Source: Halothiobacillus neapolitanus c2
GTDB taxonomy: Bacteria; Pseudomonadota; Gammaproteobacteria; Halothiobacillales; Halothiobacillaceae
NCBI RefSeq assembly: GCF_000024765.1
Contig: NC_013422.1
Span: 496,001-560,000 of the forward strand
Direction of reading: 5' to 3'
DNA length: 64,000 nucleotides
Each line of letters starts with the position of its first letter. The stretch's first letter is position 1. Position numbers and translations under genes: made by a program. Shown here piece after piece: positions 2,985-19,916 of the stretch. A model generated the notes under the pieces. That model saw only the letters and a list, made by a program, of their open reading frames with translations, searched no databases and was not told where the DNA came from.

Positions 2985-4775
2985 ATGAGTATGCGTAGCC
3001 ACACGGCCGGCCAAGTTGACTTGGCTGTTTTAGATCAAGAAGTCACCCTCGTCGGTTGGGTCAATCGCCGCCGCGATCACGGTGGGGTGATTTTTGTGGA
3101 TCTGCGCGACCGCGACGGCATGGTGCAGATCGTGTTCGATCCGGATGATTTGGACGTTTTTGCCAAAGCCGAAAGCCTGCGCAGCGAGTTCGTGATTCGC
3201 GTGCGCGGCAAGGTGCGCCGCCGTCCTGCCGGTACCGAGAACCCCAATATCGTCAGTGGCCAGATCGAGGTGCTGGGTCTGGGGCTGGAGATTCTCAACC
3301 GCTCCGAGCCGTTGCCCTTCCAGTTGGATGACGAGCGCGTCAGCGAAGAGCATCGCCTGCGGTACCGCTATCTTGATTTGCGTCGCCCCGAGATGCTGGC
3401 CCGCCTGAAATTGCGTCATCAGGTCACGCGTGCTCTGCGCGAGCATCTGGACAATGCCGGATTCATGGATGTGGAAACACCAGTGCTCACCCGTGCCACA
3501 CCGGAAGGCGCACGTGATTATCTCGTGCCTTCACGCACGCATCCGGGCGAGTTTTTCGCTCTGCCGCAGTCGCCGCAAATCTTCAAGCAGTTGCTCATGG
3601 TGGCGGGCATCGAACGTTACTACCAGATTGTAAAATGCTTCCGCGACGAGGACTTGCGTGCCGATCGCCAGCCGGAATTTACCCAGCTCGATATCGAAAC
3701 CAGCTTCCTTGATGAAGAGGAGGTGATGGCGCTGATCGAAGACATGATGCGTCATTTGTTCGCGCAAACCATCGAGCTGGCCTTACCCAATCCCTTGCCG
3801 CGCCTGACTTGGGCCGAGGCCATGCGTCGATTTGGTTCCGACAAGCCCGATCTGCGCATTCCGCTGGAACTGGTCGATGTGGGTGATCTGCTGGTCGCGG
3901 TGGATTTCAAGGTGTTCTCCGGCCCGGCCAACGATCCGCGCGGTCGCATCGCCGCCTTGCGCGTGCCGAACGGTAATTCGCTCCCGCGTAGCGCGATCGA
4001 CGATTACACCAAGTTCGTTTCCATTTACGGCGCGAAGGGCCTGGCCTATATCAAGGTCAACGATGCCGCCGCGGGTCGCGAAGGCTTGCAATCGCCCATT
4101 CTCAAGTTCCTGACCGACGATGCCATCGACGGCATCATGACGCGCACAGGCGCGCAAACCGGTGACGTGGTGTTCTTCGGTGCAGACAAGGCCAAGATCG
4201 TCAACGAATCGTTGGGTGCGCTGCGGGTCAGGATCGGGCAGGACATGGGGCTGGTCGAGCAAGGTTTCCGCGCCCTGTGGGTCACCGAATTTCCGATGTT
4301 CGAGTACGACGAAAAAGAAGGTCGATATTACGCCCTGCATCACCCCTTCACGGCACCGAATCTGGACGATCTGCACCTGTTGGAAACCGATCCGGAAGCG
4401 GTTCGTTCACGGGCCTACGATTTCGTGTTGAACGGGTTTGAACTCGGCGGTGGATCGGTTCGTATTCACGATCAGACCATGCAGAAACGGGTATTCGAAC
4501 TGCTGGGTATCTCGGCGGAGCAGGCGAGCGAGAAGTTCGGCTTCCTGCTCGACGCGCTCAAATTTGGCGCGCCGCCGATGGCGGGATTGGCGTTTGGTGT
4601 GGATCGAATCGTCATGCTCATGAGCGGCGCGACCTCGATTCGCGAGGTCATCGCCTTTCCGAAAACGCAGTCGGCGGCTTGTCTGCTCACCAACGCGCCG
4701 GGCGAAGTCGATGAAGCGCAACTGCGTGAATTGTCGATCCGCGTGCGCAAGCCGGTGGTCGAGAAAGCCGAATAA
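2985..4775 (+). CDS. aspS: Aspartate--tRNA ligase
   Basis: A class II aminoacyl-tRNA synthetase of 596 aa, matching the usual bacterial length of about 590. The frame is open further upstream, but ATG 2985 gives the family N-terminus ([10 protein letters not shown]). Domain order: N-terminal OB-fold anticodon-binding domain ([22 protein letters not shown]), motif 2 region ([18 protein letters not shown]), the bacterial GAD insertion domain in the middle, and motif 3 near the C-terminus ([13 protein letters not shown]) with the closing [13 protein letters not shown]. It charges tRNA-Asp in the cytoplasm; whether it also mischarges tRNA-Asn cannot be decided by eye. It probably belongs to one operon with the two preceding membrane-protein genes. 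Confidence 0.97.
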
Positions 4776-4780
4776 GTTCA

Positions 4781-4817
4781 GGCGGTTGGTGGTTTTTCGA
4801 TAACCAACCGCCCGTTT
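4781..4817 (+). terminator. Probable Rho-independent terminator after aspS
   Basis: A 10-bp perfect inverted repeat (GGCGGTTGGT at 4781-4790 and ACCAACCGCC at 4803-4812) lies just past the aspS stop and is followed by a short, imperfect T stretch. The stem is strong but the T tract is weak, so termination may be partial. Confidence 0.6.
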
Positions 4818-4851
4818 CTGTTCCGTCGGGCTTCACATACAGGAGGCGATT

Positions 4852-5937
4852 ATGTCTACCACACGCGATGCCGCAACCCAGATTCCTGCCGTCTTGGCCG
4901 CCCGCATTCAGGCGCTGGCCAGCCACAGCGTGCCTGCGCCCAAATTATCCCATGTACAGGAACATGAGCTGATCGAGCGCATCAAAGCCGAACTCGTTCG
5001 CCAGAATGCAGTCATGGTCGTGCATTATTACGTGGACGCCGCGCTGCAAAAGCTCGCGGATGAAACCGGCGGTCGCGTTTCAGACTCACTTGACATGGCC
5101 GCGTTCGGCGCCGCGCATTCCGCCGAGACACTGGTGGTCTGCGGCGTGCGCTTCATGGGCGAGACGGCCAAGATTCTAAGCCCAGAAAAACGTGTGCTGA
5201 TGCCGACACTCAATGCCGAATGCTCGCTTGATTTGGGCTGCCCTGCCGATGAGTTTACCGCCTTCTGTGATGCGCACCCCGATCGCACCGTGGTGGTTTA
5301 TGCCAACACCTCGGCGGCCGTCAAAGCGCGTGCAGACTGGGTCGTTACCAGTTCGAACGCCTTGCAGATCGTCGGCCATCTCAAAGAGCAGGGCGAAAAA
5401 ATCATCTGGGCGCCGGATCGACATCTGGGGCGATACATTCAGGAAAAAACTGGCGCTGACATGCTGCTCTGGCAGGCCGATTGTGTGGTGCACAATGAGT
5501 TTGCGGGCGAGGCGCTCATCGACCTCAAGCGCCAACACCCAGACGCAGCGGTACTGGTGCATCCTGAATCGCCCAAGGCGGTGGTCGATCTGGCTGATGT
5601 GGTCGGCTCGACGAGCCAGCTGATTCGTGCGGCACATGATTTGCCGCAATCCGAAATGATTGTGGCGACGGATAATGGCATCTTCTACAAGATGCAGCAG
5701 GCCGTGCCCAGCAAAACGCTCATTGAGGCACCAACCGGCGATGGCAGCCACTGTGTTTCGTGTGCGCATTGCCCTTGGATGGCCATGAATGGCCTGCAAG
5801 CAGTTTACGACGCGCTTGTCTCACCCGATGGGCATGAGATTTTTGTGCCCGAAGCCGTGCGTGTCAATGCCGTAAAATCGCTTGATCGCATGCTGGCCTT
5901 CTCCAAGGCGCAAGGGCTGGTAACGGCGCGCAAATAA
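4852..5937 (+). CDS. nadA: Quinolinate synthase
   Basis: A 361-aa protein with a strong ribosome site (GGAGG, 6 nt before ATG). It condenses iminoaspartate, made by NadB, with dihydroxyacetone phosphate to quinolinate in de novo NAD synthesis. Family motifs are visible: [38 protein letters not shown], and near the C-terminus [13 protein letters not shown]. The cysteine in the second, a middle one (ADCVVHNEF) and one of the C-terminal group would ligate the [4Fe-4S] cluster. nadB and nadC are not in the window, so this gene stands alone between aspS and an antiporter gene. Confidence 0.97.
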
Positions 5938-6063
5938 TCAGTAGCGGTTCAGCTCAACCCGATTCGAGCCTGTTTGCAGCCAAATGACAATCCACTCGCG
6001 AATCGTCACCAAGCTGCAATCGGGCAAAACTAATCTCTCTTTATATTTCTGGAAGCCCCATAC

Positions 6064-7914
6064 ATGGATCAAACCATCCTGATTACCCTGACGGGCATCA
6101 TCGTGACCGGTATCGGCGCGCAATGGCTTGCCTGGCGGTTGAAAGTGCCCGCGATCTTGTTCTTGCTTGGCATCGGGCTGTTTCTCGGCCCGGTCACCGG
6201 CCTGCTTAATCCGAACGCGCTGCTGGGCGATCTTCTCTTTCCGTTTGTTTCGCTAGCGGTAGCTGTCATCCTGTTCGAAGGCGCCCTGACCCTTCAGTTT
6301 AAGGAGCTCAAAGGCGTCGGCAGCGCGGTATGGTTACTCGTAACCCTGGGTGCCTTTGTAACCTGGGTGATTGCCAGCTACGCCGCGCACTATTTCGTCG
6401 GACTTGAGCCGCTGATGGCGGCGTTATTCGGCGCGATCGTAATCGTGACAGGGCCAACCGTTATTGTGCCGCTATTGAGGATTGTGCGGCCCAACAACAA
6501 GGTGTCCACCATTCTTCGCTGGGAAGGCATCATCATCGACCCGATCGGTGCGGTAGTTGCAGTGCTCGTGTTTGAGTACATTTTGATGAGCGCAACGCCA
6601 GCGCACGCAAACGCCAACCTGACTGCGGTCATCATTCCTTTTCTTGAATTAATCGGCGTCGGCATGGTGCTGGGCCTTGTTGGTGGCTATCTGCTCGGGC
6701 TGATACTCCGACGACATTTACTGCCGGAATACTTGGTCAACGTTGTCGTTCTGGCCACTGTATTGGCGGTATTTACCACATCCAACCTGATGGCTGATGA
6801 GTCAGGGCTCATCGCTGTCACGGTTATGGGTGTTTTATTGGCAAATATGCGTGCGGTGCCCTTGGCGGAGATCCTGCATTTCAAGGAATCGCTGACCATT
6901 TTGTTTATTTCAGGTCTGTTCATCCTTTTGGCCGCCCGGATCGAGCCTGCTATGTTCAGTGCCATCGGATTCAGTGCGCTGTTGGTTTTGTTTACAGTCC
7001 AATTTATCGCGCAGCCGGTCAAAGTCTGGCTAAGCACCATCGGTGCAGGGTTAAGCTGGCGAGAAAAACTCATGATCTCATGGATAGGACCGCGCGGCAT
7101 TGTCGCGGCTGCCATATCCGGTCTCTTTGCATTAAAACTTAATCAACAAGGTATAGCGGGTTCTGACGTCCTTGTGCCACTCACCTTTATCATTATCTTC
7201 GGGACGGTAGTGACCGCATCGCTCACGGCGCGACCGTTGGCGAATTATCTAGGCGTGGCCCAACCCGAAGACAAAGGCGTGCTCATGGTCGGCATCAACG
7301 TGTTTTCCTGCATGCTGGCACATGCCCTCAAAAAACATGGCTATCGCGTCATTCTTACAGACAGTAATTTTGCGGACATCCGCACCGCTCGCATGGAAGG
7401 GCTTGAAACCTTCTACGGCAATGCTGTTTCGCAAGCGGCAGAGCGACGTCTTGATCTGGTGGGTATCGGTCGACTGTTCGCCGTATCCGGCGTGCCCGAA
7501 ATGAACAACCTAGCTGCCATTCGCTATCGTCACGAGTTTGGCGCAGAAAACGTCTACGTACTGCAAACACCGCAGGAAAAATCTGGCTCCGATCAGCAGC
7601 GGCTATCGCATGTGTTCACCGGTCGCAAATTGTTCGGCACCGGTGTCTCGTTGGGCGACCTGATGCTGCTTATCGAGCAAAAGGCAGAAATTAAATCAAC
7701 CCGTCTGACCGAAGAATTTAACTGGGAAAAGTATCAGCAAACCTATGATAAACGAGGCATCCTACTGCTTATGATCTCACCTAAAGGGATTTTGCACGTC
7801 CAAAGCGATGGCCCCATGCCAACGCCCAGCGAAGGCTGGATCATCATTGGCTTATACCGCGCGCAAACGGAAGTTGAGGCAAAACCAGATGCAGTAGAGG
7901 CCAGCGCCGCGTGA
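6064..7914 (+). CDS. CPA1-type cation/proton antiporter with C-terminal TrkA-N (RCK) domain
   Basis: A 616-aa inner-membrane protein. Residues about 5-390 form some twelve hydrophobic helices with NhaP-like sequence (LFEGALTLQFKEL, GAIVIVTGPTVIVPLLR, WIGPRGIVAAAISGLFA), the region expected to hold the transport Asp residues. Residues about 400-520 resemble a Rossmann-like TrkA-N domain (GVLMVGINVFSCMLAHALKK, then ILTDSNFADI), which in related antiporters binds nucleotide and gates transport. A small C-terminal domain follows. The likely role is Na+ or K+ export in exchange for protons, contributing to pH and salt homeostasis; ion specificity cannot be assigned. The preceding 126 nt show no clear regulatory element. 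Confidence 0.9.
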   Translation: MDQTILITLTGIIVTGIGAQWLAWRLKVPAILFLLGIGLFLGPVTGLLNPNALLGDLLFPFVSLAVAVILFEGALTLQFKELKGVGSAVWLLVTLGAFVTWVIASYAAHYFVGLEPLMAALFGAIVIVTGPTVIVPLLRIVRPNNKVSTILRWEGIIIDPIGAVVAVLVFEYILMSATPAHANANLTAVIIPFLELIGVGMVLGLVGGYLLGLILRRHLLPEYLVNVVVLATVLAVFTTSNLMADESGLIAVTVMGVLLANMRAVPLAEILHFKESLTILFISGLFILLAARIEPAMFSAIGFSALLVLFTVQFIAQPVKVWLSTIGAGLSWREKLMISWIGPRGIVAAAISGLFALKLNQQGIAGSDVLVPLTFIIIFGTVVTASLTARPLANYLGVAQPEDKGVLMVGINVFSCMLAHALKKHGYRVILTDSNFADIRTARMEGLETFYGNAVSQAAERRLDLVGIGRLFAVSGVPEMNNLAAIRYRHEFGAENVYVLQTPQEKSGSDQQRLSHVFTGRKLFGTGVSLGDLMLLIEQKAEIKSTRLTEEFNWEKYQQTYDKRGILLLMISPKGILHVQSDGPMPTPSEGWIIIGLYRAQTEVEAKPDAVEASAA

Positions 7915-7997: not shown

Positions 7998-8073
7998 GCG
8001 GGAATAGCTCAGCTGGTAGAGCGCAACCTTGCCAAGGTTGAGGTCGCGAGTTCGAACCTCGTTTCCCGCTCCA
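7998..8073 (+). tRNA. tRNA-Gly (anticodon GCC)
   Basis: A 76-nt cloverleaf with acceptor arms GCGGGAA and TTCCCGC, D-arm AGCTCAGCTGGTAGAGC, anticodon loop TTGCCAA, T-loop TTCGAAC and encoded CCA. First gene of a three-tRNA operon. Confidence 0.97.
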
Positions 8074-8074
8074 C

Positions 8075-8150
8075 GGGTGATTAGCTCAGTTGGTAGAGCG
8101 GCGCCCTTACAAGGCGTAGGTCGGGAGTTCGAGCCTCTCATCACCCACCA
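8075..8150 (+). tRNA. tRNA-Val (anticodon TAC)
   Basis: A 76-nt cloverleaf with acceptor arms GGGTGAT and ATCACCC, anticodon loop CTTACAA, T-loop TTCGAGC and encoded CCA. Only one nucleotide separates it from tRNA-Gly, so both come from one precursor. Confidence 0.97.
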
Positions 8151-8160
8151 CATCAAATTA

Positions 8161-8237
8161 GCAGCGGTAGTTCAGTTGGTTAGAATACCGGCCTGTCACG
8201 CCGGGGGTCGCGGGTTCGAGTCCCGTCCGCTGCGCCA
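8161..8237 (+). tRNA. tRNA-Asp (anticodon GTC)
   Basis: A 77-nt cloverleaf with acceptor arms GCAGCGG and CCGCTGC, anticodon loop CTGTCAC, T-loop TTCGAGT and encoded CCA. It is the last tRNA of the operon, and the integrated element begins 36 nt past its 3' end, in the operon terminator rather than in the tRNA. Confidence 0.97.
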
Positions 8238-8273
8238 TTCAATGGTTTTACAACGTCCGAAGAAGTTTTAAAA

Positions 8274-8293
8274 CCTTAATCAAACCCGCATCC
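8274..8293. repeat. Left attachment-site direct repeat (candidate att core)
   Basis: CCTTAATCAAACCCGCATCC occurs here and again, exactly, at 15143-15162. The two copies bracket the integrase, the IS, the mobilization genes and the alpA gene, and both lie at the start of terminator hairpins. The tRNA-proximal copy would be the left junction of the element. Confidence 0.72.
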
Positions 8294-8317
8294 CTACTAG
8301 GTTTGCGGGTTTTTTTA
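8282..8317 (+). terminator. Terminator of the tRNA operon (hybrid of chromosome and element)
   Basis: AAACCCGCA (8282-8290) pairs with TGCGGGTTT (8304-8312), followed by a T run. The left arm lies within the candidate att repeat and the right arm within the element, so integration appears to have replaced the original distal arm with an equivalent one. Confidence 0.85.
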
Positions 8318-8360
8318 CGCCTATGGCGTCCTAAAACATCTCTTTACAGCCAGTGGTTCT

Positions 8361-8434
8361 TGACGGTATTTTTGACGGTATGACGGTGTTGATACCGTCA
8401 GCCTGTGAAAAAATACCGTCAAAGGATACCGTCA
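8361..8434. repeat. Cluster of TGACGGTA sites upstream of the integrase gene
   Basis: TGACGGTA occurs at 8361 and 8373, TGACGGTG at 8381, and the inverse TACCGTCA at 8393, 8414 and 8427, the last touching the integrase start codon. The sites at 8381 and 8393 form a perfect 7-bp palindrome with a 6-nt centre. They look like arm-type integrase sites and/or an operator for the integrase promoter. Confidence 0.75.
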
Positions 8435-9717
8435 TGGCACTTACAGATACCGCTATCAAGGCCTTAAAGCCCGAATCTAAGCCGTACAAGGTTACGGATG
8501 AGAAAGGGCTTTATTTATTCGTCACACCAGCCGGGGGCAAGTTGTGGCGGCTTGATTACCGCTTTGAAGGTAAACGAAAGACGCTGGCTCTTGGTGGGTA
8601 TCCCGACGTAAACCTGAAACAGGCCAGGGTATACCGCGACGAAGCCCGCCAACTCATTGCCAACGGCACCGACCCCGCCGAACTGCGGAAGGCGGAAAAA
8701 ACCACCATAACTGAGTCAAGGCGAGAGGAGGCCGAAGCTGTAAAGATCGAAGCCATGATTCAGGCGGGCGAGGCTTTGCCCGGTTCGTTCGAGGAAATTG
8801 GTGATGAGTGGGTGAATATGTACCTTGCCGACAAATCGGAAAAATACCGGAACAAGGTTATCAACCGGCTGAAGGCGGAGGTTTACCCCTACCTTGGCCG
8901 GGCGCCTGTCGCTGATGTGACTGCACCCATGGTATTAAAGGTTTTGCAGCGGATTGAAGCACGCGGAATCATCGAAAGTGCCCACCGGGTAAAGCAAAAC
9001 ATTGGGCAAATTCTGCGTTATGCAATTGCCACAGGTCGCCGGGAACTGTTCGACGTGACAATGGCGCTGAACAAAGCCATTGCCCCCATGCCGAAAGACA
9101 AAAACCATGCGGCACCGACCGAACCCAAGGACATCGCCCCACTGCTGCGCATCATGGCCGGTTATCGTGGATCACCAATTACCCGTGCCGCGCTAACCAT
9201 TGCCCCCTGTGTGTTCGTGCGTATTGGTGAACTCAGGCACATGCAATGGGCAGATATTGATTTTGAAACGTTTGAATGGCGATACACCGCCAGCAAGACA
9301 GGGCAGGAGCATATCGTGCCTCTTGCTCGGCAAGTGGTCGCGGCCCTGATCGAGTTGCAGCCCCTCACAGGCCACTCACGCTACGTTTTCACTGGCGCAC
9401 GGAGTGACACCCGCCCCATGAGTGAAAATACCGTCAACGGGGCGCTGAAGCGCCTAGGCATCGACACACAAACCGAACTGACCGGCCACGGCTTCCGAGC
9501 AATGGCGCGCACGGTATTAGAAGAAGTCCATAACTTCAGGCCCGAAGTCATCGAGCTTCAGCTTGCCCATGCCGTCCGTGATCCACTGGGCAGGGCATAT
9601 AACCGCACCAAGCATTTAGAAACCCGCAGGAAGATGATGCAGGTGTGGGCGGATTATCTGGATGAGCTGCGTGATTCTAAGAATGTGATTCAGGGCAATT
9701 TCGGTATGGTGGGATAG
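8434..9717 (+). CDS. P4-type tyrosine integrase (DUF4102 arm-binding domain)
   Basis: A 427-aa site-specific recombinase. ATG 8434 is chosen because AAAGGA stands 7 nt before it and the protein then begins MALTDTAIKALKP, the standard N-terminus of this family; the frame is open 81 nt further upstream. The N-terminal DUF4102 domain (about 1-100, with YLFVTPAGGKLWRLDYRF and LGGYPDVNLKQAR) binds arm sites, a core-binding domain follows, and the catalytic domain shows RIGEL, HGFRA and LAHAV and the nucleophile in AYNRTKH. The gene would excise and integrate the element. A TACCGTCA site abuts its start codon, suggesting autoregulation or Xis/AlpA control. Confidence 0.95.
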   Translation: MALTDTAIKALKPESKPYKVTDEKGLYLFVTPAGGKLWRLDYRFEGKRKTLALGGYPDVNLKQARVYRDEARQLIANGTDPAELRKAEKTTITESRREEAEAVKIEAMIQAGEALPGSFEEIGDEWVNMYLADKSEKYRNKVINRLKAEVYPYLGRAPVADVTAPMVLKVLQRIEARGIIESAHRVKQNIGQILRYAIATGRRELFDVTMALNKAIAPMPKDKNHAAPTEPKDIAPLLRIMAGYRGSPITRAALTIAPCVFVRIGELRHMQWADIDFETFEWRYTASKTGQEHIVPLARQVVAALIELQPLTGHSRYVFTGARSDTRPMSENTVNGALKRLGIDTQTELTGHGFRAMARTVLEEVHNFRPEVIELQLAHAVRDPLGRAYNRTKHLETRRKMMQVWADYLDELRDSKNVIQGNFGMVG

Positions 9718-9762
9718 CGATGGTATCCCGAATTCCTGTATATCATTGTTAGGGATGCAATG

Positions 9763-11039
9763 GGGCACCTCGAAAAACCTCAGTCATGCAATTTTGGGTA
9801 AAATTCTCCCATGTGATTGTTTGCGGAGCCGACTGGGATGAAAAAGCGTAGTGCCATTAAGACGGACCTGTTTGCTGATACCCATCACCGAGATAAGCTT
9901 GACACGTTGGGCGACCCCTTGGCAGAAATCGAAGCCTGCATCGACTTTGCCGCCCTGGCGGCAGAAGTCGATCGCATTGCGCCGCGGCCCGTCAGTGTTC
10001 AAGGCGGTCGTCCGCCGTACCCGACCGAGACCATGGTGCGCATTCTGGTCTTGAAACGCCTGTACAACCTGTCCGACGAACAGATGGAATACCAACTGCT
10101 TGACCGCATGAGCTACAAGCGCTTCTGTGGTCTGTCCCAGGCAACCAACATCCCTGATCGCACCACCGTGTGGACCTTCGAGAACCGGATCGGCGAAGTC
10201 GGAGCCCAGGTCATCTTTGATGGCGTCACCACACAACTCTTGAAGAAGGGCTTTATCGCCCGTGGTGGCCAGATCATTGATGCTACGCTGGTGCCAGCGC
10301 CGAAGCAGTCTTTTTCCAAGGAAGACAAGGAACAGCTCAAAGCGGATGCGATGCCGGCCGACTGGCAACCGGGCAAGCGCCGTCAAAAAGACCTGGATGC
10401 GACCTGGACCAAAAAGCATGGCAAGAGCCAGCACGGCTACAAGCTTTCAGTGAATGTTGACAAGAAGCACAAGTTCATCCGCAAAATCGTGACGGACACG
10501 GCCAGTACCCACGACAGTCAGCATTTCGATGCAGTGATCGATCCGGCCAATACGAGTCGGGATGTCTACGCTGATCGGGGTTATCCGTCCGAAGAACGCG
10601 AACAATGGCTCAAGGCAAATGGATACCGGAACCGGATTCAGCGTAAGGGCAAACGGAACAAGCCGTTATCCGAAGCTCAACAGGGACGCAACCATCGCAT
10701 CGCCAAAACACGCGCCAGGGTCGAGCATGTGTTCGGTGCCATTGAGCAGATGGGGGGCAAGCTGCTGCGCACCATTGGTCAGGCGCGGGCAAACTTTGCG
10801 ATGACAATGATGGCGGCCTGCTACAACCTGAAGCGGCTGGCGTATTTCCAGCGAGTGGGCATCACGGCTTTCTGACGCCAGAAATGGTTAGAATAGCCGA
10901 TACCCGAGGCGATTCGAGGTAAAAACGGGGCGGCATCGTCGGAAAAGCGGTGTTTTGCCTGAGAGATTGAACAGAATTCGGTCGCTGTCATCATTGCGCG
11001 CCGGGATTCATTGAAAACCTCGGGTTATTCGAGGTGCCC
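9763..11039. mobile_element. IS5-family insertion sequence, complete
   Basis: A 1277-bp unit with one transposase gene. Terminal inverted repeats are GGGCACCTCGAAAAACCTCAG at the left (9763-9783) and, read from the right end inward, GGGCACCTCGAATAACCCGAG (11039-11019), 18 of 21 matching. No convincing target duplication is visible at the flanks. It lies between the integrase and the mobilization genes and disrupts no recognisable gene. About 165 nt of non-coding sequence separate the transposase stop from the right end. Confidence 0.88.
9838..10875 (+). CDS. IS5-family DDE transposase
   Basis: A 345-aa transposase read from ATG 9838; an upstream TTG (9817) would add seven residues. The N-terminal DUF772-type region (GRPPYPTETMVRILVLKRLYNLSDEQMEYQL) and the DDE_Tnp_1 catalytic core are both present. 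The expected triad is visible as D148 (QIIDATLV), D246 (VYADRGY) and E296 (RARVEHVFG), so the enzyme looks intact. It would cut and join the IS ends described for the enclosing element. The frame is unbroken from start to stop, suggesting recent activity. Confidence 0.95.
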   Translation: MKKRSAIKTDLFADTHHRDKLDTLGDPLAEIEACIDFAALAAEVDRIAPRPVSVQGGRPPYPTETMVRILVLKRLYNLSDEQMEYQLLDRMSYKRFCGLSQATNIPDRTTVWTFENRIGEVGAQVIFDGVTTQLLKKGFIARGGQIIDATLVPAPKQSFSKEDKEQLKADAMPADWQPGKRRQKDLDATWTKKHGKSQHGYKLSVNVDKKHKFIRKIVTDTASTHDSQHFDAVIDPANTSRDVYADRGYPSEEREQWLKANGYRNRIQRKGKRNKPLSEAQQGRNHRIAKTRARVEHVFGAIEQMGGKLLRTIGQARANFAMTMMAACYNLKRLAYFQRVGITAF

Positions 11040-11496
11040 TATATTGGCCGAGAAAAAATTAACTTTCTGTCCGGTTTGAGTTGACCACTACAATTCGCCG
11101 GGTGGGATGGTGTGTTTCCGAATGGTTATATCCATGGCTGCACTTTATTGCGGTTGGTTTTGTCATTGTATTTATTCGATAATATCCAGAGTTGTCCAAT
11201 AGCATTTTTCTGATTATATCCATTTTGTTATTAGTGACTTAGCCTGTTTATCCTGATGCCAATCAAGACCAAATTCCTTGGCTTGTGCTGTTATCAGGGT
11301 GAATGCAGATGAACACAATCAGTTGGGTATTTCTTGTCGTTGTTGGTAAGGAGCAAGGTGTAATTCGGCTGGCGCCGAATTCAACCCTTCGGTCGCTAAC
11401 GCTCCCTTCGCCCCCGTTCGCTGACGCTCAGGGGGTTGCTTCGCCCCTTCCGACCACGCCCCCCGGGGCTGTCGGTTTTGGTTTTGGCGGAGGTCT
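11040..11496. other. Non-coding region between the IS and the mob genes
   Basis: The left 260 nt are AT-rich with a repeated TTATATCCAT (11126 and 11214) and no gene. The right part holds the inverted and direct repeats proposed as oriT. A 65-codon frame from 11303 crosses those repeats and is considered fortuitous. Confidence 0.5.
11362..11429. other. Candidate origin of transfer (oriT)
   Basis: A perfect 8-bp inverted repeat AATTCGGC-TGGC-GCCGAATT (11362-11381) is followed by near-identical direct repeats TCGCTAACGCTC (11393) and TCGCTGACGCTC (11418) and a run of CCCTTCGCCCCC. An inverted repeat next to a potential nick region directly upstream of mobC and the relaxase is the usual oriT arrangement. 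The nick site itself cannot be assigned. Confidence 0.4.
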
Positions 11497-11904
11497 ATGA
11501 TGATGACCATTGATCAAACCAAAACCAGTCGTCGCCCACGTCGGGGTCATGTCTTGGCTGAGTCTGACCGTCGCCGCCATAAGGTGATGACACGGGTCAA
11601 TGATGCGGAACTTGCCGAAATCGACGCCCGTCGCGGCCTATATGATCGCGGTGAGTTTTTGCGTATGTCCTTGTTCGGGATGAAACAGGCAAGACCTCGG
11701 CCTACGATTATCATCCCGGCATTGAATCAGACGGCATGGCTTGTGCTGTCCCGATCAGCTTCCAACCTCAATCAGCTCTCCCGTCATCTGAATGAGGCTG
11801 GTCTTCAAGTGGCCGACTTGCCGCAAATCATCATCATGCTGACTCAATACCGTGATGCCTTGATCGGCGCCCGGCTGCCCGAGGATCAAGACGATGAAAG
11901 CTAA
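11497..11904 (+). CDS. MobC-like relaxosome accessory protein
   Basis: A 135-aa basic protein beginning with three consecutive ATG codons behind GGAGG; the second or third ATG has the better spacing. The region RRHKVMTRVNDAELAEIDARRGLYDRGEFLRMSL resembles a ribbon-helix-helix DNA-binding fold, and LSRSASNLNQLSRHLNEAG matches the conserved NLNQ-A-xLN motif of MobC mobilization proteins. Such proteins bind oriT and help the relaxase open the strands. The gene overlaps the relaxase start by 11 nt, so both are translationally coupled. Family assignment rests on motif and context. Confidence 0.78.
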   Translation: MMMTIDQTKTSRRPRRGHVLAESDRRRHKVMTRVNDAELAEIDARRGLYDRGEFLRMSLFGMKQARPRPTIIIPALNQTAWLVLSRSASNLNQLSRHLNEAGLQVADLPQIIIMLTQYRDALIGARLPEDQDDES

Positions 11905-14317
11905 GGTCACTCGTGGCACTGGGTTTCGTGGGGTATTGGACTATGCACTGGATACCGGCAACCAGAAGGGCAAGAACCCGGAGATTGTCGGTGGCACCTT
12001 GACGTCGGGCAGCGCCAGAGCCATGTCAGACCAGTTTGCCGTCACCCGACGCCTGCGACCGGATATCAAGTCTCCGGTATGGCACGCCTCCCTGGCATTA
12101 CCGGAAGGAGAGCGGCTTTCATCCGAACGATGGTCATCTATTGCTGATGACTTCATGCAAGAGATGGGATTTCCATCAGAATCTCTATACACGGTCATTC
12201 GGCACAACGACACCAAGCACGACCACATCCACATCATCGCCAGTCGAGTCAGCCTTTCTGGCGGACTCTGGCATGGGCAATGGGAAGTATATCGAGCGAT
12301 CAGGGCCACCCAAGTTCTGGAGCGCATCCATGGTCTGACCCTGACACCTGGTTTGGGTGAACCAAAAGATGAAAAGACCCTGACCAAAGGTGAAATCGAA
12401 CAAGCACTACGCACTGGGGCAGAAGCCCCACGCCAGCGGCTTCAGCGCCTGGTCAAGGAAGCCGCCCAGGGCAAGCCAACCGCCGTCATGTTTGCCGAAC
12501 GGTTGGAACTGGCTGGAGTGGGCGTGCGTTTCCAGATACAGAAAACCGGCATTACCGGCGTGAACTATGAACTTGATGGTCTTGCGTTCAAGGGGCAATC
12601 CCTAGGCGATTCCTACAAATGGTCGAAATTCTCGAAAAAATATGGAGTCAGTTATGAGCAAGCTAGAGACAGTGAAAGCCTTGAACGATACACAACCGCA
12701 ATTGCAGATCGTACAGGCCGTGATGAACTTGGAAACGCAGGCAGAAGCCTTGAGGTCGATGCTGGGTTCGTTACCCCAAGCAGTAGCAGAGCAGACAGCC
12801 GAAGCACTGGAGCCGTTGGCGAAGCTGAGGGCGGAGGTCATTCAAGTTCTGACCGCTTACGACAAAGTGACCGCAGCACAGCGCCAGACACTGGAGGAAT
12901 TGACTCAGCAGATGAGTACCAGCGCAGCGGCAGCATTCGAGCAGAAGGCCGCGAAGCTGGACAAAACAATCTCCGACCTGTCACGGAGTCTGTCGGGGCT
13001 GAAATCGAGCATCGACACGATGGCGAAGACCGCACAGAACATCGAGACGATCCCGGATCAACTCAAGAAATCAGCGCAAGCCATGACAACCACGGCGAAC
13101 GAACTGAGCGCGGCGGCGAGATCGACACGACCGAAGATTTGGCGTCAGACACTGGGACTGATCTTAGCCAGCGCAATCGGTGGGATTCTGGTGCTCACTG
13201 GGCAAGTCGCTTTAAACAGGCTTCTGCCGCCAAGCGGCGTGCAACAGGCGGCGGACTGGGTAAACGTGCTATTAAGCAAAGCGACGCCAGAAGAACGCGC
13301 GTTACTGAGCAAGATCGTCAATCGGCCCGCGAACTAGACCCGACCGCTTACCTCGGAGCTAACGGTTACGATGTGAAACACGAAGGTCGACATCGGAGCG
13401 TCAGGCTGCATGGTGATGAGGTGTACCGAGTTACCCAGAGGCAGGATGGGCATTGGGTCTGGTGTGATCTGTACGGCAACAACGGTGGCGACAATATCGA
13501 CCTCGTGCGTGAGATCGAGCCAGGCACCGGATTCGCGGAGGCTGTTTTCCGCCTTGCTGGCGCGCCGACTGTCGGGCCAAAGCGCCGTCCGCCTGCCGAA
13601 CCCAAGCGCCCACCACCGCGACTGCCTAAGCAGGAAGTGGCAAGTCGGGCACTAGGGCGAGACTACCTGATTAATGATCGGGGGATTAGCATGGACACCA
13701 TTGAGCATGCCGAGCAATGCGGCATGCTGCGCTATGCCAATGGCGGGGTTTTGTTTGTTGGCTATGATCAGGCAAGTACGCCACAAAACATCACCCGCCG
13801 AGCGATTGAATCTGCCGACCCCATGCAGAAGCGTGATTTGCGCGGCAGTGACAAGCGATATCCGCCGATTCTGCCGGGTGATCCGTCAACAGTCTGGATT
13901 GTCGAGGGCGGCTCTGATGCGCTGGCCCTGCACGATATCGCCAAACGTCAGGGCCGGCCACAACCTACCGTCATTGTCTCAGGCGGAGCGAATGTGCGCA
14001 GCTTTTTGGAGCAGGTAGAAGTACAGGCGATCTTGAAGCAAGCGGAACGCGTGACCATTGCCGGAGAAAATGAAAGGGACGAAGCAACGCAGAAGCGAAC
14101 TGATGAGGCGCATCAGAAACAAGTGCAGCGCGTGAAAGAAATTACAGGACGTGCGGTTAAATCATGGACGCCGAAGCAGTATCTGGGTAAAGATCTTGCG
14201 GAAATGAATTACCGACAACAACCCGAACTGATGCCTGTGCAATTGATAAATCTAGACCAGCGGGCGGAAACAAAGCCATCACAAGTAATAGAAGGTGATT
14301 TGATACTGGGCCAATGA
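11894..14317 (+). CDS. MOBP-like relaxase fused to a TOPRIM domain
   Basis: An 807-aa protein in three parts. Residues about 1-250 form a relaxase domain with candidate catalytic Tyr17 (GVLDYALD) and the metal-binding motif RHNDTKHDHIHIIASRV (His104, His111, His113). Residues about 255-480 are hydrophilic, rich in Arg, Asp, Ser and Gly, and probably disordered; this is exactly where another gene is overprinted in a different frame. Residues about 485-780 contain a DUF3991-like segment (AYLGANGYDV, GHWVWCDLYGNNGGDNIDLV) and a TOPRIM domain (TVWIVEGGSDALALHDIA at about 663-680). The relaxase would nick oriT and stay linked to the transferred strand. TOPRIM may give primase-like activity to the transferred strand, which is an inference. 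Confidence 0.88.
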   Translation: MKAKVTRGTGFRGVLDYALDTGNQKGKNPEIVGGTLTSGSARAMSDQFAVTRRLRPDIKSPVWHASLALPEGERLSSERWSSIADDFMQEMGFPSESLYTVIRHNDTKHDHIHIIASRVSLSGGLWHGQWEVYRAIRATQVLERIHGLTLTPGLGEPKDEKTLTKGEIEQALRTGAEAPRQRLQRLVKEAAQGKPTAVMFAERLELAGVGVRFQIQKTGITGVNYELDGLAFKGQSLGDSYKWSKFSKKYGVSYEQARDSESLERYTTAIADRTGRDELGNAGRSLEVDAGFVTPSSSRADSRSTGAVGEAEGGGHSSSDRLRQSDRSTAPDTGGIDSADEYQRSGSIRAEGREAGQNNLRPVTESVGAEIEHRHDGEDRTEHRDDPGSTQEISASHDNHGERTERGGEIDTTEDLASDTGTDLSQRNRWDSGAHWASRFKQASAAKRRATGGGLGKRAIKQSDARRTRVTEQDRQSARELDPTAYLGANGYDVKHEGRHRSVRLHGDEVYRVTQRQDGHWVWCDLYGNNGGDNIDLVREIEPGTGFAEAVFRLAGAPTVGPKRRPPAEPKRPPPRLPKQEVASRALGRDYLINDRGISMDTIEHAEQCGMLRYANGGVLFVGYDQASTPQNITRRAIESADPMQKRDLRGSDKRYPPILPGDPSTVWIVEGGSDALALHDIAKRQGRPQPTVIVSGGANVRSFLEQVEVQAILKQAERVTIAGENERDEATQKRTDEAHQKQVQRVKEITGRAVKSWTPKQYLGKDLAEMNYRQQPELMPVQLINLDQRAETKPSQVIEGDLILGQ
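12654..13337 (+). CDS. MobB-like membrane-anchored protein overprinted within the relaxase gene
   Basis: A 227-aa frame lying wholly inside the relaxase gene in another reading frame. It is unlikely to be a shadow: GGAG stands 6 nt before ATG 12654, the frame stays open for over 680 nt, and the product has ordered features, namely a long alpha-helical, heptad-rich region (residues about 15-155 with KLDKTISDLSRSLSGLKSSI), then one clear membrane helix (about 165-187, TLGLILASAIGGILVLTGQV) and a short tail. In RSF1010-type and ColE1-type plasmids mobB is likewise embedded in mobA in another frame and encodes a membrane-associated relaxosome partner. By that analogy this protein would link the relaxosome to the coupling protein. 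Confidence 0.75.
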   Translation: MSKLETVKALNDTQPQLQIVQAVMNLETQAEALRSMLGSLPQAVAEQTAEALEPLAKLRAEVIQVLTAYDKVTAAQRQTLEELTQQMSTSAAAAFEQKAAKLDKTISDLSRSLSGLKSSIDTMAKTAQNIETIPDQLKKSAQAMTTTANELSAAARSTRPKIWRQTLGLILASAIGGILVLTGQVALNRLLPPSGVQQAADWVNVLLSKATPEERALLSKIVNRPAN

Positions 14318-14321
14318 GCAA

Positions 14322-14363
14322 AAAGCCCAACATCCACGGTCAACGAGGGCTTTGTTGGGCTTT
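14322..14363 (+). terminator. Hairpin after the relaxase gene
   Basis: AAAGCCCAAC (14322-14331) pairs perfectly with GTTGGGCTTT (14354-14363). It begins 5 nt after the relaxase stop. The T tract is short. Confidence 0.65.
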
Positions 14364-14376
14364 GATGCCTGATTTT

Positions 14377-14404
14377 GCCCAGCATCAGAGATGAGATGCT
14401 GGGC
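14377..14404. terminator. Second hairpin between the convergent relaxase and alpA genes
   Basis: GCCCAGCATC (14377-14386) pairs with GATGCTGGGC (14395-14404), 8-nt loop. On the minus strand it follows the alpA stop and is followed by AAAATC rather than T, while on the plus strand it lacks a T run. It may act bidirectionally with the preceding hairpin. Confidence 0.5.
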
Positions 14405-14413
14405 TTACGGGGC

Positions 14414-14584
14414 TTAACGGCGATCATCCAGCCATTGCTGGACCTCTGATCTTCGCCATCCGACCGCTCGAACGCCGAGTTTCACGGGTTGCGGAAAAAT
14501 CCCAGCACTGACCCACAGATAAATGCTCGATCGGGATGCGCCGGTAATCCGGAGCACATCGTGCAGGCGTAAAATACTATCCAT
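14414..14584 (-). CDS. AlpA-family DNA-binding regulator
   Basis: A small protein of 56 aa when started at the ATG giving MDSILRLHDVLRITG; an in-frame ATG at 14614 would add ten residues. It matches the AlpA/MerR-like winged helix fold: LRLHDVLRITGASRSSIYLWVSAGIFPQPVKLG, then VGWRRSEVQQWLDDR. In P4-like and other integrative elements AlpA activates the integrase or acts as excisionase. It is convergent with the relaxase and transcribed back toward it. The TGACGGTA sites near both ends are possible targets, although nothing in the sequence shows this. Confidence 0.9.
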   Translation of the reverse strand: MDSILRLHDVLRITGASRSSIYLWVSAGIFPQPVKLGVRAVGWRRSEVQQWLDDRR

Positions 14585-14820
14585 TTCTGCCCCAGGGGCA
14601 TATTTCTGACACATGATTGAAAAGTCTCATTTTTAGGGGTTAAAAATGAGGCGGTACCGACCAGAAAACCAGACTCACGCATTTGCATAGCGAACTGCTA
14701 GCGCGTAGAATGTACCCAGAGTGTTGTTAAGACACTTCCGGTGTTGTCTGCCGGTTAAACAAGTGACATTGAGCAGCTAAACTCAAACTCTTTCCGACCG
14801 CCTCTCGCGTGTCTCGGAGC

Positions 14821-14863
14821 AGCCCGTCAGGTACTAGTAATACCGAACGGGCTTTCTTTTTTG
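14821..14863 (+). terminator. Rho-independent terminator without an obvious upstream gene
   Basis: AGCCCGT (14821-14827) pairs with ACGGGCT (14847-14853), followed by TTCTTTTTT. On the plus strand no coding frame precedes it, which suggests a short untranslated transcript from within the element. Confidence 0.6.
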
Positions 14864-15035
14864 GAAAGAACTTTCCGGGACAAGTGTCATTTTAACAGAT
14901 TCACTCATGCCAACTCGTTTTCACGAAAAACGCGCTTTTTTATACAGAACCGTTCACTGCTCGATGAGAAGTGAACGAGTCAAGTTCGGATGACAGGTTT
15001 GGATTGGTCTGGATGCCTCTGTAGCGTCTGTCTGG

Positions 15036-15056
15036 TGACGGTATATTTGACGGTAT
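15036..15056. repeat. Paired TGACGGTA sites near the right end of the element
   Basis: TGACGGTA occurs at 15036 and 15048, with the same 12-nt spacing and nearly the same intervening bases as the pair at 8361 and 8373. Only one base differs across the 21-nt block. The mirrored placement supports arm-type integrase binding sites. Confidence 0.72.
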
Positions 15057-15142
15057 CTTCAGAACATGAACCTGGAGACCCGCATTGATGCTTTGGATGT
15101 GACGCCCGTCAGCGCGCCAATCGATGGTCACACGCGAGTGTG

Positions 15143-15162
15143 CCTTAATCAAACCCGCATCC
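15143..15162. repeat. Right attachment-site direct repeat (candidate att core)
   Basis: Exact second copy of CCTTAATCAAACCCGCATCC. It runs into the chromosomal remainder of the original tRNA-operon terminator, as expected for the right junction. Confidence 0.72.
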
Positions 15163-15188
15163 TTGCATTGGGATGCGGGTTTTTTTTG
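15151..15188 (+). terminator. Probable original distal half of the tRNA-operon terminator
   Basis: AAACCCGCATCC (15151-15162) pairs perfectly with GGATGCGGGTTT (15171-15182), followed by a T run. This stem is longer and cleaner than the one behind tRNA-Asp, consistent with its being the ancestral terminator displaced by integration. Confidence 0.85.
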
Positions 15189-15383: not shown

Positions 15384-16184
15384 ATGTCCCAGCAAAATAC
15401 ATCGACTCAAGGCGTTTCCGAAGATTCATCGCGTTTTTCACGCGTTGCCATCGTAACCGGTGCCACGTCGGGGATCGGTGAAGCAACGGTCAGGAAATTT
15501 GTGCAGAGTGGTTACGGGGTGATTGGTAATGCGCGCAGTGCCGATAAGCTTGAGGCGCTGGCTGTCGAATTGGGCGATGCCTTTTTTGGCGTGGCGGGCG
15601 ATGCGGGAGATGCTTCGGTGATCGATCAGCTTCTGGATGCCGCCCAAGCTTATTTCGCGCGCCCGGCGGATATTGTGGTGGTCAATGCCGGGCGTGGACT
15701 GGGCGGATTGATGACCGAAGTTGATCTGGCGGAGTACGAACAAGTGCTCAAGCTCAATGTGTTGGGGGCTGCGTTGTTGATGCAGAAGGCGGCGCAGGCG
15801 CTGGTTGAGAAACAGGCCGCAGATTTTCCTCGACAGGCGGCTGATATCGTTGTGATCGGCTCGGTCGTTGGGCGCAACATTTCACCGTTCAGTGCCGTCT
15901 ATGGCTCGACCAAGTTCGCCGTGCAGTCGCTGGCCGAAGGATTGCGGCGTGAGGTGGGCAAGAAAGGTGTCCGTGTGACGGTGATTGAGCCGGGCATCGT
16001 TGTGAGTGGATTTCAGGATGCCGCAGGCTACGACGATCATCTGGTGGATAAATTCAATACGGATTTCGGGCCATTGCTGTACGGAGCGGATATCGCCAAT
16101 GCGATTGATTTCGTTGTGGCCCAGCCGTCGCACATCCACATTAACGAGTTGATGATTCGCCCGACACGACAGGATTATCCATAA
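15384..16184 (+). CDS. Short-chain dehydrogenase/reductase (classical SDR)
   Basis: A 266-aa NAD(P)-dependent oxidoreductase. The Rossmann glycine motif TGATSGIG (residues about 26-33), the structural VVNAG motif, the catalytic Ser in IGSVVG and the YGSTK pair (Tyr and Lys) are all present, so the enzyme should be active. The N-terminal 18 residues before VAIVTG are polar and longer than usual. GAGG precedes ATG 15384 at good spacing. The sequence resembles oxidoreductases of the YdfG/serine-dehydrogenase-like group, but the substrate cannot be named. It is the first chromosomal gene beyond the mobile element, and it stands alone. Confidence 0.9.
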   Translation: MSQQNTSTQGVSEDSSRFSRVAIVTGATSGIGEATVRKFVQSGYGVIGNARSADKLEALAVELGDAFFGVAGDAGDASVIDQLLDAAQAYFARPADIVVVNAGRGLGGLMTEVDLAEYEQVLKLNVLGAALLMQKAAQALVEKQAADFPRQAADIVVIGSVVGRNISPFSAVYGSTKFAVQSLAEGLRREVGKKGVRVTVIEPGIVVSGFQDAAGYDDHLVDKFNTDFGPLLYGADIANAIDFVVAQPSHIHINELMIRPTRQDYP

Positions 16185-16389: not shown

Positions 16390-19300
16390 ATGACCAGCCC
16401 TGCAGACACTTTTCTCGATCTGTCCACATCCGTTCTGCGGGACCTTGTGGCTGGCCAGTCGCCGAAGGATCTTGCTGCGCGTATTTGTCTTCGGATAGAG
16501 CAGATGCGCCCGGGAAGAATCGCCAGCGTCATGTGGGCGGGCGACGGCGACGAAAGGCTGCACGTGTTTGCCGCACCCAGCGCGCCTCAGGGGCTTATTG
16601 ATCAGCTCGATGGCTTGACGCCCGGTGCGCATGCCGGTTCATGTGGCAGCGCGGCTCATTCCGGAGTACCCGCCTTGGTGTCCGATATCGAAACGGACAG
16701 TCGTTGGGATGATTTGCGCCCGCTGGCGCAGCAATGGCATCTTCGTTCCTGCTGGTCTTTACCTCTGTTCCATAATGATCGGTTGCTGGGCACCTTTGCC
16801 TTGTCCGGGATGGTTTCGGATGTGCCTACGGATGACGATATCCTGCTGCTTCAGTTTGCGGCGACGCTTGTCAGTGCCCTGTTGCATCACGAGTATCAGA
16901 TGATGCAACGCCAGCGGTTGACCGATCAGAAAAGCCGCTTGATCGATTTCAATCACATGTTGGCGAAGGTAAACCAGAAGATCGTTTCGGTCGAGAGTGA
17001 GCGAGAACTGTTGCAACCGCTCTGTGATCTTGCCGTGCGCTACGCCCATCTGAAGCTGGTTTTGCTCGCTCGCCCCGATGAAACCCTCCGATTCCGCTTT
17101 CTGGCCGCCTCAGGGGCGACCGGCTATACCGACGGTTTGTACATTTCAGCCGACCCCGATTTGCCGGAAGGGCAGGGTACGATGGGTCGAACCTGGCGTT
17201 CGGAGCAAGCCTATTTCAATACTTCTTTCGAACATTCCGAGTTTTTGCAGCCGTGGCAATCGAGGGCGCGTCAATTCGGGTTGAAGGCAACCGCCACATT
17301 GCCTGTTTTACGCGGCGGTAAAATGTTCGCCGTGCTGGCCGTTTATCACGCAGAACCCGATGTCTTTGATGGGCCATTGCAGGATGTACTTCGAGAACTG
17401 GCTTTGAGCATATCGCGTGGGCTGGATCGGCTGGATGCCCGGAAGCTGCAAAACGCTCTGTTCAACAACGCGTTTGTTGGTGTATTTCTGGTGCAGGGTC
17501 GAGTGATCAAAAGCTGTAATCCCCAGGCAGCGCACATGTTCGGTTACAGCCTTGACGACATGGTGGGGATGCCGGTTCGGGATTTTTTTGCCAGCGATAT
17601 TGAATATGCCCGTCTAGACAAAGCCTTTTCCAAAATGAGCAAATCGCAGGTCGTGCAACGGCAATCGATGGTTTGTGTGCGTCGGGACAGGAAATTGTTG
17701 CAATGTGATGTCTCGGGTCGAATGTTTATCGATAACGAGGGCGAACATAGCGTTTGGACTGTTCTGGATGCGACCGAGCGTGAGACGCAGGCACAACGTT
17801 TGCACCGTATTGCCGGTTTCCGGGAGCTATTATCAGAGCTCAATCAGTTCAGTGCCGATCCGGCCAACATGCAGCAAGTCAAAGACCATGATTTGTACGA
17901 CTTTGTCTGCCAAGTCCTGAGTCAGAACAATGCGCTGAAACTGGTCTGGATCGGTTCGCCGCTGCCAGGTGGCGGCGGTTTTGATGTTCTTGCATCCTCG
18001 GGCGAGCTGAATTGGCATTCGGATTGTCTCCCCATGCAGAGTGAGCAGCCGTTGTCTTCCGGAAAATTGATGAGAGAGCATACGGCTCAGCGCTGCTGGC
18101 ACGAAAATCAAACCATACTCCTCACATACGAGATCCCTTCGACAGATGGTCGAGGGGGGCAAAGTGTTGCGCGAAGTACCGTTTCCTTGCCGATTCATAT
18201 AGATGGCACACTGACGGCGGTGCTTACGATATGCGGTCACAGTGAAGACATCCTCGATCAGGACGCTATTTCATTTTTTGATAACCTCGTGCTGAATATC
18301 GAGCGTGGTTTGCAGAACATCCGGCAGCGCAACCAGATCATGCGCCTGCAAGGCTTGTATCGTGCGCTCATGCAGCAGGCAGACGTTGTGCTGCGCGCGC
18401 AAACAGTGCCCGATATGCTCTTTGGCACCTGCGAAAAACTGGTACAAGAAACCCCTTTTAATGCCATCTACTTGAGAAAGCCAAATGCCGATGGCGTCAT
18501 GGATGTCCTCGCTTCTACCGGTAGTGGCGCCGCAGCGTTGCAAAATGTCATCTCAGTGGTGGCCGAGGATGCACGAGATCAGCTTATCGTGCGCGCATGG
18601 CTGACCCAGAAAACAGCCATTGAAAATGATTTGTTGGGTAACGCGCGCCTCGCGGAATACCATCCGTTTCTCAGAGCGCATCGGTGGCATTCAGCATTGG
18701 TCACGCCCGTAAGACGCGGCGGAGAGCTATGGTCGGTTATGGGCTTTGTCTGTGAAGATCATGACGTCTTCGATCCTCAAACCGTCGAGCTGTGTGAACG
18801 GGTAGCCGAACTGTTGGGGCGTGGTTTGGATGAATTGGACAACAAACAGCGTCTCGTTTCACTTCAGTCCGAAGAGGCTTATCGCGCCCGACATGATCGC
18901 CTGACCGATCTGCCCAACCGCTTCGCCCTGGAGCAATATTTACCTCAAGCGCTTGCACGGTCTAAAAAGAATGGTCGGATGCTGGCGCTTGGGATGATGG
19001 ATCTGGATGATTTCAAACCAGTCAACGATCAGTTCGGGCATGAAACGGGTGATCGCCTTTTAAGAGAGCTGGCGGGGCGCTTGCGTGCACGTCTGCGCGC
19101 GCAAGATTTCCTGGTGCGTCTGGGTGGGGATGAATTCGTCGTCGTGATCGGCGATATCGATCCGGATCATGCCATAGCCCATCTGCAATTGGCGCTCAGC
19201 CGTCTGCACGAAGCGGTTGAAGAAGGTTTTGAAGAAGGTTTTGAAGTAGCCCCGGATCGGTTCGCAACCGTTGGTTTGTCCGGTGGGTTCGCCCTATACC

Positions 19301-19425: not shown

Positions 19426-19464
19426 CTCCATTCCTTCTGTTTTGTACAAGGGCATTTCGAAATA

Positions 19465-19831
19465 CCCGTGATTCGTCGTTCCCGCGAAAGCGGGAACCCA
19501 GAAAAATCAAGGCGCCAGATTCCCGCCTACGCGGGAAAGACTGGTTTTTCGAGATACCCGTGATTCGTCGTTCCCGAGAAAGCGGGAACCCAGAAAAAAC
19601 AAGGCGCTGGATTCCCGCCTGCGCGGGAATGACTGGTTTTTCGAAATACCCGTGATTCGTCGTTCCCGCGAAAGCGGGAACCCAGAAAAATCAAGGCGCT
19701 GGATTCCCGCCTACGCGGGAATGACTGGTTTTTCGAGCTACCCGTGATTCGTCGTTCCCGCGAAAGCGGAAACCCAGAAAATCAAGGCGCTGGATTCCCG
19801 CCTACGCAGGAATGACTGGGTTTTCGAGCTT
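19465..19831. repeat. Four tandem 92-bp double-hairpin repeats
   Basis: Units begin at 19465, 19557, 19649 and 19741 with exactly 92-nt period and few mismatches. Each carries two palindromes, TTCCCGCGAAAGCGGGAA and ATTCCCGCCTACGCGGGAAT, joined by a spacer with CCAGAAAAATCAAGGCGCTG. A fifth copy is inverted at 1678-1775. The array fills most of the 491-nt gap between the cyclase and the polysaccharide locus. Short frames within it are products of the repeat, not genes. Confidence 0.95.
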
Positions 19832-19916
19832 CCCCCTGGTATCTGATACTGGTTTTTGGTTTATCACCCCAGATTAAACCGCTATCATGCCGTCTTTCGT
19901 TCAATAAGAATCCCGT

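Follow-up and report, generated by a model that had tools for sequence, protein, structure and literature searches.

We analyzed a 64,000-nucleotide stretch of the chromosome of Halothiobacillus neapolitanus c2 (NC_013422.1, positions 496,001 to 560,000), hereafter the window, in whose own numbering coordinates are given. Here an operon of three tRNA genes, closing with the only tRNA-Asp gene found in the genome, is followed by what its genes indicate to be a small integrative and mobilizable element of the P4/CP4-57 type, defined by an integrase and AlpA (8238–15119). Very probably, this element inserts at the 3′ end of tRNA-Asp and brings its own intrinsic terminator in a phased left end, in replacement of the native terminator that it displaces. 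The locus comprises the following features:

7998–8073, 8075–8150 and 8161–8237, + strand: tRNA-Gly(GCC), tRNA-Val(TAC) and tRNA-Asp(GTC), the target operon (7998–8237)
8222–8237, +: attL core, the tRNA-Asp 3′ end CCCGTCCGCTGCGCCA, with the chromosome/element boundary at the CCA from comparison with genomes G005 and G006
8245–8274, +: block I, the 10-bp direct repeats GTTTTACAAC/GTCCGAAGAA/GTTTTAAAAC, predicted AlpA (excisionase) sites
8282–8316, +: element-borne intrinsic terminator, stem 8282–8290/8304–8312, T tract 8310–8316
8317–8349, +: block II, phased GCC/TCC/TCT repeats with TCC at 8329, predicted excisionase sites
8362–8381, +: left arm-type sites, two copies of GACGGTAT at a 12-bp step, predicted
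8392–8399, 8413–8420 and 8426–8433: inverted ATACCGTC, directly before the integrase (int) start
8434–9717, +: tyrosine integrase with an arm-binding domain (PF13356, 3.4e-27; PF22022; PF00589)
9762–11040, +: IS5-family insertion sequence, transposase 9838–10875
11497–11904, +: small open reading frame (ORF) that starts before mobA and overlaps it, with no family match and a likeness to MobC in position only
11894–14317, +: MobA-type relaxase with a long C-terminal part (PF03432)
12642–13337, +: ORF lying within mobA in a different frame, resembling MobB in position
14414–14614, −: AlpA-family excisionase (PF05930, 7.7e-21)
15037–15056, +: right arm-type sites, two copies of GACGGTAT at a 12-bp step, predicted
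15105–15119, +: attR, the tRNA-Asp 3′ end copy CCCGTCAGC-GCGCCA, without the T at −7
15120–15187, +: probable left-end remnant of an older related element, with altered block I (15120–15150) and terminator (15151–15187)

An exact 20-bp repeat, CCTTAATCAAACCCGCATCC (8274–8293 and 15143–15162), brackets the integrase, insertion sequence, mob and alpA genes, as an earlier note on this DNA had observed and the family matches bear out; its chance expectation is 0 (100 shuffles), and these are its only two copies in the single-contig genome of 2,582,886 bp. Each copy provides the left arm of a good intrinsic terminator: on the left AAACCCGCA (8282–8290) pairs with TGCGGGTTT (8304–8312), on the right AAACCCGCATCC pairs with GGATGCGGGTTT, both stems running into a T tract, and the shuffles all fold less well than either copy (z −5.0 and −4.1, respectively), which confirms a terminator at both ends. 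A simple terminator scan with a loop limit of 8 reported none here, with the loop limit as the probable cause, and the tRNAs were the sole matches of an Rfam search.

The integrase, the MobA-type relaxase and AlpA support the view that this is a mobilizable integrated element, which would presumably be mobilized through the relaxase. The best NCBIfam match of the integrase, PRK09692.1, falls under its cut-off. In DNA, the relaxase region is 71% identical to small mobilizable plasmids from Aeromonas, Klebsiella and Salmonella, the match to those of Aeromonas and Klebsiella covering 1.57 kb; a matching plasmid entry is annotated as a relaxase/primase fusion. The other ORFs scanned match no type IV secretion system families. 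The arm-type repeats, predicted sites, match at the two ends in sequence, copy number and step. Block I of the window has one full GTCC and can also fold as a hairpin. The IS5-family element has probably moved recently, since it is 100% identical to its only other copy in the genome (G000:C1:2077791); the contigs L003 and L004, from metagenome-assembled genomes (MAGs), stop near its insertion point.

The point of integration

The earlier note had taken the 20-bp repeat for the attachment site and placed integration inside the terminator stem; relatives of the locus put the junction at the tRNA CCA instead. In G005, a MAG with a 100% identical integrase, the right junction reads CGCCCGTCCGCGCGCCAATCGATGGTTTTACAACATCCGAAGAAGTTTTAAAACCTTAATCAAACCCGCATCC, so that the repeat is about 75 bp long and starts in the tRNA-Asp 3′ end; in the right copy of the window the middle has been replaced by CACACGCGAGTGTG, and the distal 20 bp alone stay identical. 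At 15120–15150, CACACGCGAGTGTG stands in place of the GTTTTACAAC..GTTTTAAAAC repeats and forms a different perfect hairpin. In G006 (integrase 99% identical) the element has tRNA-Asp on one side and, on the other, the displaced native terminator, which bears no relation to the 20-bp repeat: the attR of this element, ...GCGCGCCA|AATCCTCAAAAGCC..GGCTTTTTTC, is followed by a wzm-like gene, the sequence past the junction being ...GCGCGCCA|AATCCTCAAAAGCCATATCGAAAGATACGGCTTTTTTC. In the element-free G001 the wzm-like gene comes directly after tRNA-Asp, with a native terminator similar to that of G006 and again unrelated to the repeat. Therefore, integration joined the element to the CCA and shifted the native terminator to the far end of the element. 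The att pair is found at the tRNA 3′ end (GCTGCGCCA at 8229–8237 and GCGCGCCA at 15112–15119), and the empty site predicted from the repeat, namely tRNA-Asp, one 20-mer and then TTGCATTGGGATGCGGG, occurs in 0/9 other Halothiobacillus genomes. The G006 element (L179, reverse complement coordinates 3498–6295) showed no mob genes. Its possible cargo is a pair of ORFs that run against int and are 641 and 263 codons long; the 641-codon one contains a P-loop-like GSGKTW motif.

An empty/filled pair at ssrA, the gene for transfer-messenger RNA (tmRNA), in Escherichia coli gives the same junction. In strain CPF6, with an empty ssrA, ATCATGATTGGACGG... comes directly after the gene, with a terminator T tract at 146 and then ypjA. 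In MG1655 the prophage CP4-57 splits ssrA from this downstream sequence, which reappears exactly, together with its terminator, after attR, 22 kb away. The left junction of MG1655 has TCC at 29 and 39, a terminator (dG −24.5) with its T tract 73 nt past the CCA, TCC again at 93, 103 and 123, and then intA; the first terminator after ssrA in K-12 would thus be prophage DNA. Two other E. coli ssrA-linked integrases (ST1193, KO11FL) have a terminator T tract at 62, and leuX-intB has a terminator at 30. At argW-intS of K-12 (KplE1) the array is present, and no terminator was found between its blocks.

The right side of the window seems to have a history of its own. In G004 the right end of the same element is joined to the left end of a second one, which is more complete there than in the window (L180) and holds repeats, a terminator, an arm site and the first integrase codons; G007 has a similar left end behind tRNA-Asp, as a scar without an integrase (L182); and the shortest remnant of it is that of the window and G005. 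On these comparisons, the right-hand terminator is very probably the left end of an older, decayed related element, not the native terminator, and the locus an accretion, in which the present element inserted between tRNA-Asp and the older scar. Between the scar and the wzm-like gene (19938) lie genes for a short-chain dehydrogenase/reductase (SDR, 15384–16184) and a GGDEF protein (16390–19425), and an array of an approximately 80-bp repeat (ATTCCCGCCTACGCGGGAATGAC type) occupies 19460–19850 between the latter and the wzm-like gene. G015 (locus L004), from another genus, shares its left end and integrase with the window at 100% identity, but the tRNA spacers and the tRNA-Asp anticodon stem differ; this identity suggests a recent transfer.

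The left-end module among related elements

The segment 8238–8345, with its three 10-bp repeats and terminator, constitutes a module of which the 20-bp repeat is the tail. A covariance model detects it in 12/27 Halothiobacillaceae genomes and, in a class-level sample of 369 genomes, in one genome besides that of the window. Where ARAGORN calls a tRNA, the module starts within a few nucleotides of the CCA of tRNA-Asp, Ala, Leu(CAA/UAA/CAG), Val, Met or Phe; it is also found behind tmRNA 3′ ends. Intact copies are accompanied by an intact int (48–100% identity) at a near-constant distance of 88–105 nt, and most other copies are scars with integrase fragments or none. Thus, the claim that the element supplies a terminator on the left stands, though what it supplies is the whole terminator and not a right arm alone; that this terminator would shield both the tRNA operon and int is likewise supported.

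Three further copies in the genome of the window (G000:C1:596108, 1044392 and 1319280) adjoin tRNA-Ala(GGC), a tRNA-Leu-like 3′ end and tRNA-Leu(CAG), with no integrase near, and look like scars of former elements. Two oddities occur beside intact related integrases: a tRNA-Leu with its last 19 nt duplicated (L133/L209, G004:C79) and a tRNA-Val whose T loop contains a duplication of 7 bp, TGGTTCG (L141/L210, G005:C10). We dropped the idea that block I is a covarying RNA hairpin: covariation in the naive alignment did not exceed that of shuffles, and the block is better described as three 10-bp direct repeats.

The same layout recurs well beyond the family. We gathered 230 loci of related integrases, 139 of which (34–100% identity) were left after removal of redundancy at 80%; a co-directional tRNA or tmRNA gene lies just upstream of the integrase in 200/230. 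Between the RNA gene and int, an intrinsic terminator (dG<=−9) is present in 93/139, against 13.5 expected from dinucleotide shuffles. Its T tract mostly begins about 53 or 62 nt past the tRNA end: among the 83 terminators within 30–100 nt of the RNA end, 36 start at 51–55 nt and 35 at 60–64 nt, together 71/83. In 12 aligned stems the sequences differ, and pairing is nonetheless kept in 95/96 cells, as against a shuffled maximum of 86. A TCC/GTCC array flanks the terminator, at 8, 18 and 28 and then at 71, 81, 91 and 101 nt past the RNA end; TCC pairs 10 bp apart number 142 versus 8 expected, and the TCC gap across the terminator clusters at 43/53/63/73 bp. Hence, the phased array of predicted excisionase sites is strong across related elements. 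The tRNA-int spacing clusters near 164/177/188 and fits a 10.5 bp period weakly; the phasing is accordingly read from terminator and TCC positions. Paired arm repeats at 12-bp spacing occur at both element ends (TTGACGGTAT in the window, GGGGGCAT and TTGGTAAC in others). On the integrase tree the terminator label changes 33 times versus 43.6 with shuffled labels, so the terminator is moderately clade-bound.

At the other end, a search for attR in 40 further 20-kb stretches gave three candidates, most elements being probably longer. The attR of L015 and L062 is followed by terminator-like hairpins, as at the right end of the window. A one-nucleotide deletion at −7/−6 is seen in 7/10 attR examined, namely those of tRNA-Asp (window 15105–15119), four tRNA-Leu, tRNA-Thr and ssrA (with the window, L012, L016, L062, L355, L381 and L395). 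Two studies describe the −7 deletion in ssrA (dT357) as a scar of excision, by which tmRNA is inactivated in both E. coli and Shewanella (PMC10107115, PMC5148205), and Table 1 of the former also lists such scars for P4-type elements of Vibrio and Salmonella.

A proposed replacement of the transcript end, and its parallels

Upon the observed boundaries, displacement of the native terminator, and position, phasing and generality of the terminator, we propose the following mechanism. The integrase would recombine the element with the tRNA-Asp 3′ end, cutting the tRNA operon from its own trailer and terminator, which would move to the far side of the element. Int is co-directional, and the operon loses its trailer and terminator on integration at the CCA; with nothing in their place, transcription would continue into int and the tRNA precursor would acquire a foreign 3′ extension. 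The left end would instead carry a new trailer: three phased excisionase sites, a strong terminator, more phased sites, the arm-type sites and int. Most likely, this terminator ends the tRNA transcript and keeps tRNA transcription out of int; as its size steps by about one DNA turn, the flanking recombination sites would stay in phase. The array is read as AlpA sites because the excisionase TorI binds GTTCG/GATCG/GTCCG in two blocks at attL of KplE1 (PMC2951348) and RdfS of ICEMlSymR7A is proposed to bind as a filament, with one subunit per DNA turn (PMC11963761); AlpA binding in the window is predicted by this analogy.

Several observations weigh against this account. The block I repeats of the window are degenerate (GTTTT twice, GTCCG once); no clear promoter was recognized for int; and all compared genomes are assemblies, several of them MAGs. 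The terminator is undetected in about a third of the relatives, notably the Sphingomonadales Leu(CAG) clade, and is hence not obligatory. Loci L035–L079 (Sphingomonadales and relatives) form a large tRNA-Leu(CAG) integrase clade with a nearly constant spacer of 165–166 nt in which no terminator was found. Finally, the ssrA dT357 scars put the excisive exchange 5′ of −7, but the attR sequences suggest an exchange at or 3′ of −7; the crossover is therefore not fixed to the base, though this conflict would vanish if −7 lay inside the strand-exchange overlap.

Among the alternatives, the terminator might be a partial attenuator, with int deliberately transcribed at a low level from the tRNA promoter, as reported for the integrative and conjugative element (ICE) ICEKp1 (PMC13023037), in which the gene order is identical. 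We consider this unlikely, though with some weight: in the window, the stem has the form of a strong, canonical terminator whose T run is seven long, and int is separated from it by arm-like repeats. It is improbable that the dyad serves the recombination complex in the first place, as an inverted repeat for protein binding or as a DNA bend, with termination incidental; its quantised position, in steps of about 10 bp inside the recombination region, would suit such a role, but its stem sequence turns over with pairing kept, its T tract is one-sided, and the elements without a terminator, about a third, yet retain the array. That the left terminator is the own terminator of the tRNA operon, with the element lying wholly downstream, is very improbable: tRNA genes normally have nearby terminators, but here the native ones lie past attR (G006, L015, CP4-57), and phased sites flank the terminator on both sides, from 8 nt after the CCA, in unrelated hosts. 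Scarcely tenable too is recombination within the terminator stem, with the 20-bp repeat as att core and the stem rebuilt, which would account for an exact repeat unique in the genome and for terminators forming on both sides, but is contradicted by the extension of the repeat into the tRNA in G005, the CCA junctions of G006 and the E. coli pair, and the modules behind other tRNAs.

Alongside the proposed mechanism, we consider it possible, if rather doubtful, that the element holds its target tRNA hostage. By analogy with ssrA, excision would leave the −7 deletion, destroy the only tRNA-Asp gene and, this being a single copy, be lethal. If so, this would explain why so many family members persist solely as left-end scars behind intact tRNAs; the many decayed scars would fit such a reading, but decay by internal deletion is ordinary as well. 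With the element terminator in place, the 3′ end of the hostage gene would moreover come to rely on element DNA, and the recurrent attR deletion makes a tRNA-gene addiction mechanism directly testable.

Bacterial islands very commonly integrate at tRNA and tmRNA 3′ ends, and the usual explanation considers only that the RNA sequence is restored. In these elements, the end of the transcript is predicted to be rebuilt as well. The presence of a conserved terminator, in helical phase with excisionase sites on either side, would explain how such elements neither let transcription run into int nor harm an essential RNA gene, and the scar signature of a tRNA CCA, phased GTCC and a terminator can reveal past insertions. 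The element is thus of a known kind. Its terminator does exist, comes with the element and belongs to a conserved layout, of which we found no description in the literature searched on islands carrying tRNA terminators.

Nevertheless, parts of this layout have parallels. In KplE1, TorI sites likewise lie in two blocks between argW and intS, in a context of integrase autoregulation (PMC2951348), and the window differs by the terminator between the blocks. ICEMlSymR7A has an IntS arm consensus, TGKTGGTATC, that resembles TTGACGGTAT; unlike the window element, it is a large conjugative element at a phe-tRNA, and a terminator is not discussed for it (PMC11963761). ICEKp1, ICEclc and ICEEc1 are closer, with int co-directional downstream of the tRNA, the native terminator at the far end (the tRNA-asn terminator being displaced in ICEKp1), and stem-loops between the tRNA and int; those in the int 5′-UTR of ICEKp1 lower tRNA-int transcripts. 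They are described as attenuating tRNA-driven int, and no fixed-phase canonical terminator between excisionase blocks is described (PMC13023037). Terminator T1 of Tn916, like that of the window, sits near one end and insulates the element from host transcription; unlike it, Tn916 is not tRNA-targeted and T1 replaces no host RNA gene terminator (PMC11658703). In the fis phage-inducible chromosomal islands (PICI) of Enterobacteria, the identity block can similarly reach into a rho-independent terminator, but their target is a protein gene and their integrase is of a different clade (PMC10111431). The nearest counterparts are CP4-57 of E. coli K-12 and CP4So of Shewanella, which share the P4-type integrase, AlpA, integration at an RNA 3′ end and the attR deletion at −7, CP4-57 also having the phased sites and terminator. 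The literature on them, in the text available, treats the excision scar and does not discuss the prophage-borne ssrA terminator (PMC10107115, PMC5148205). Their target is tmRNA, whereas that of the window element is an essential, single-copy tRNA.

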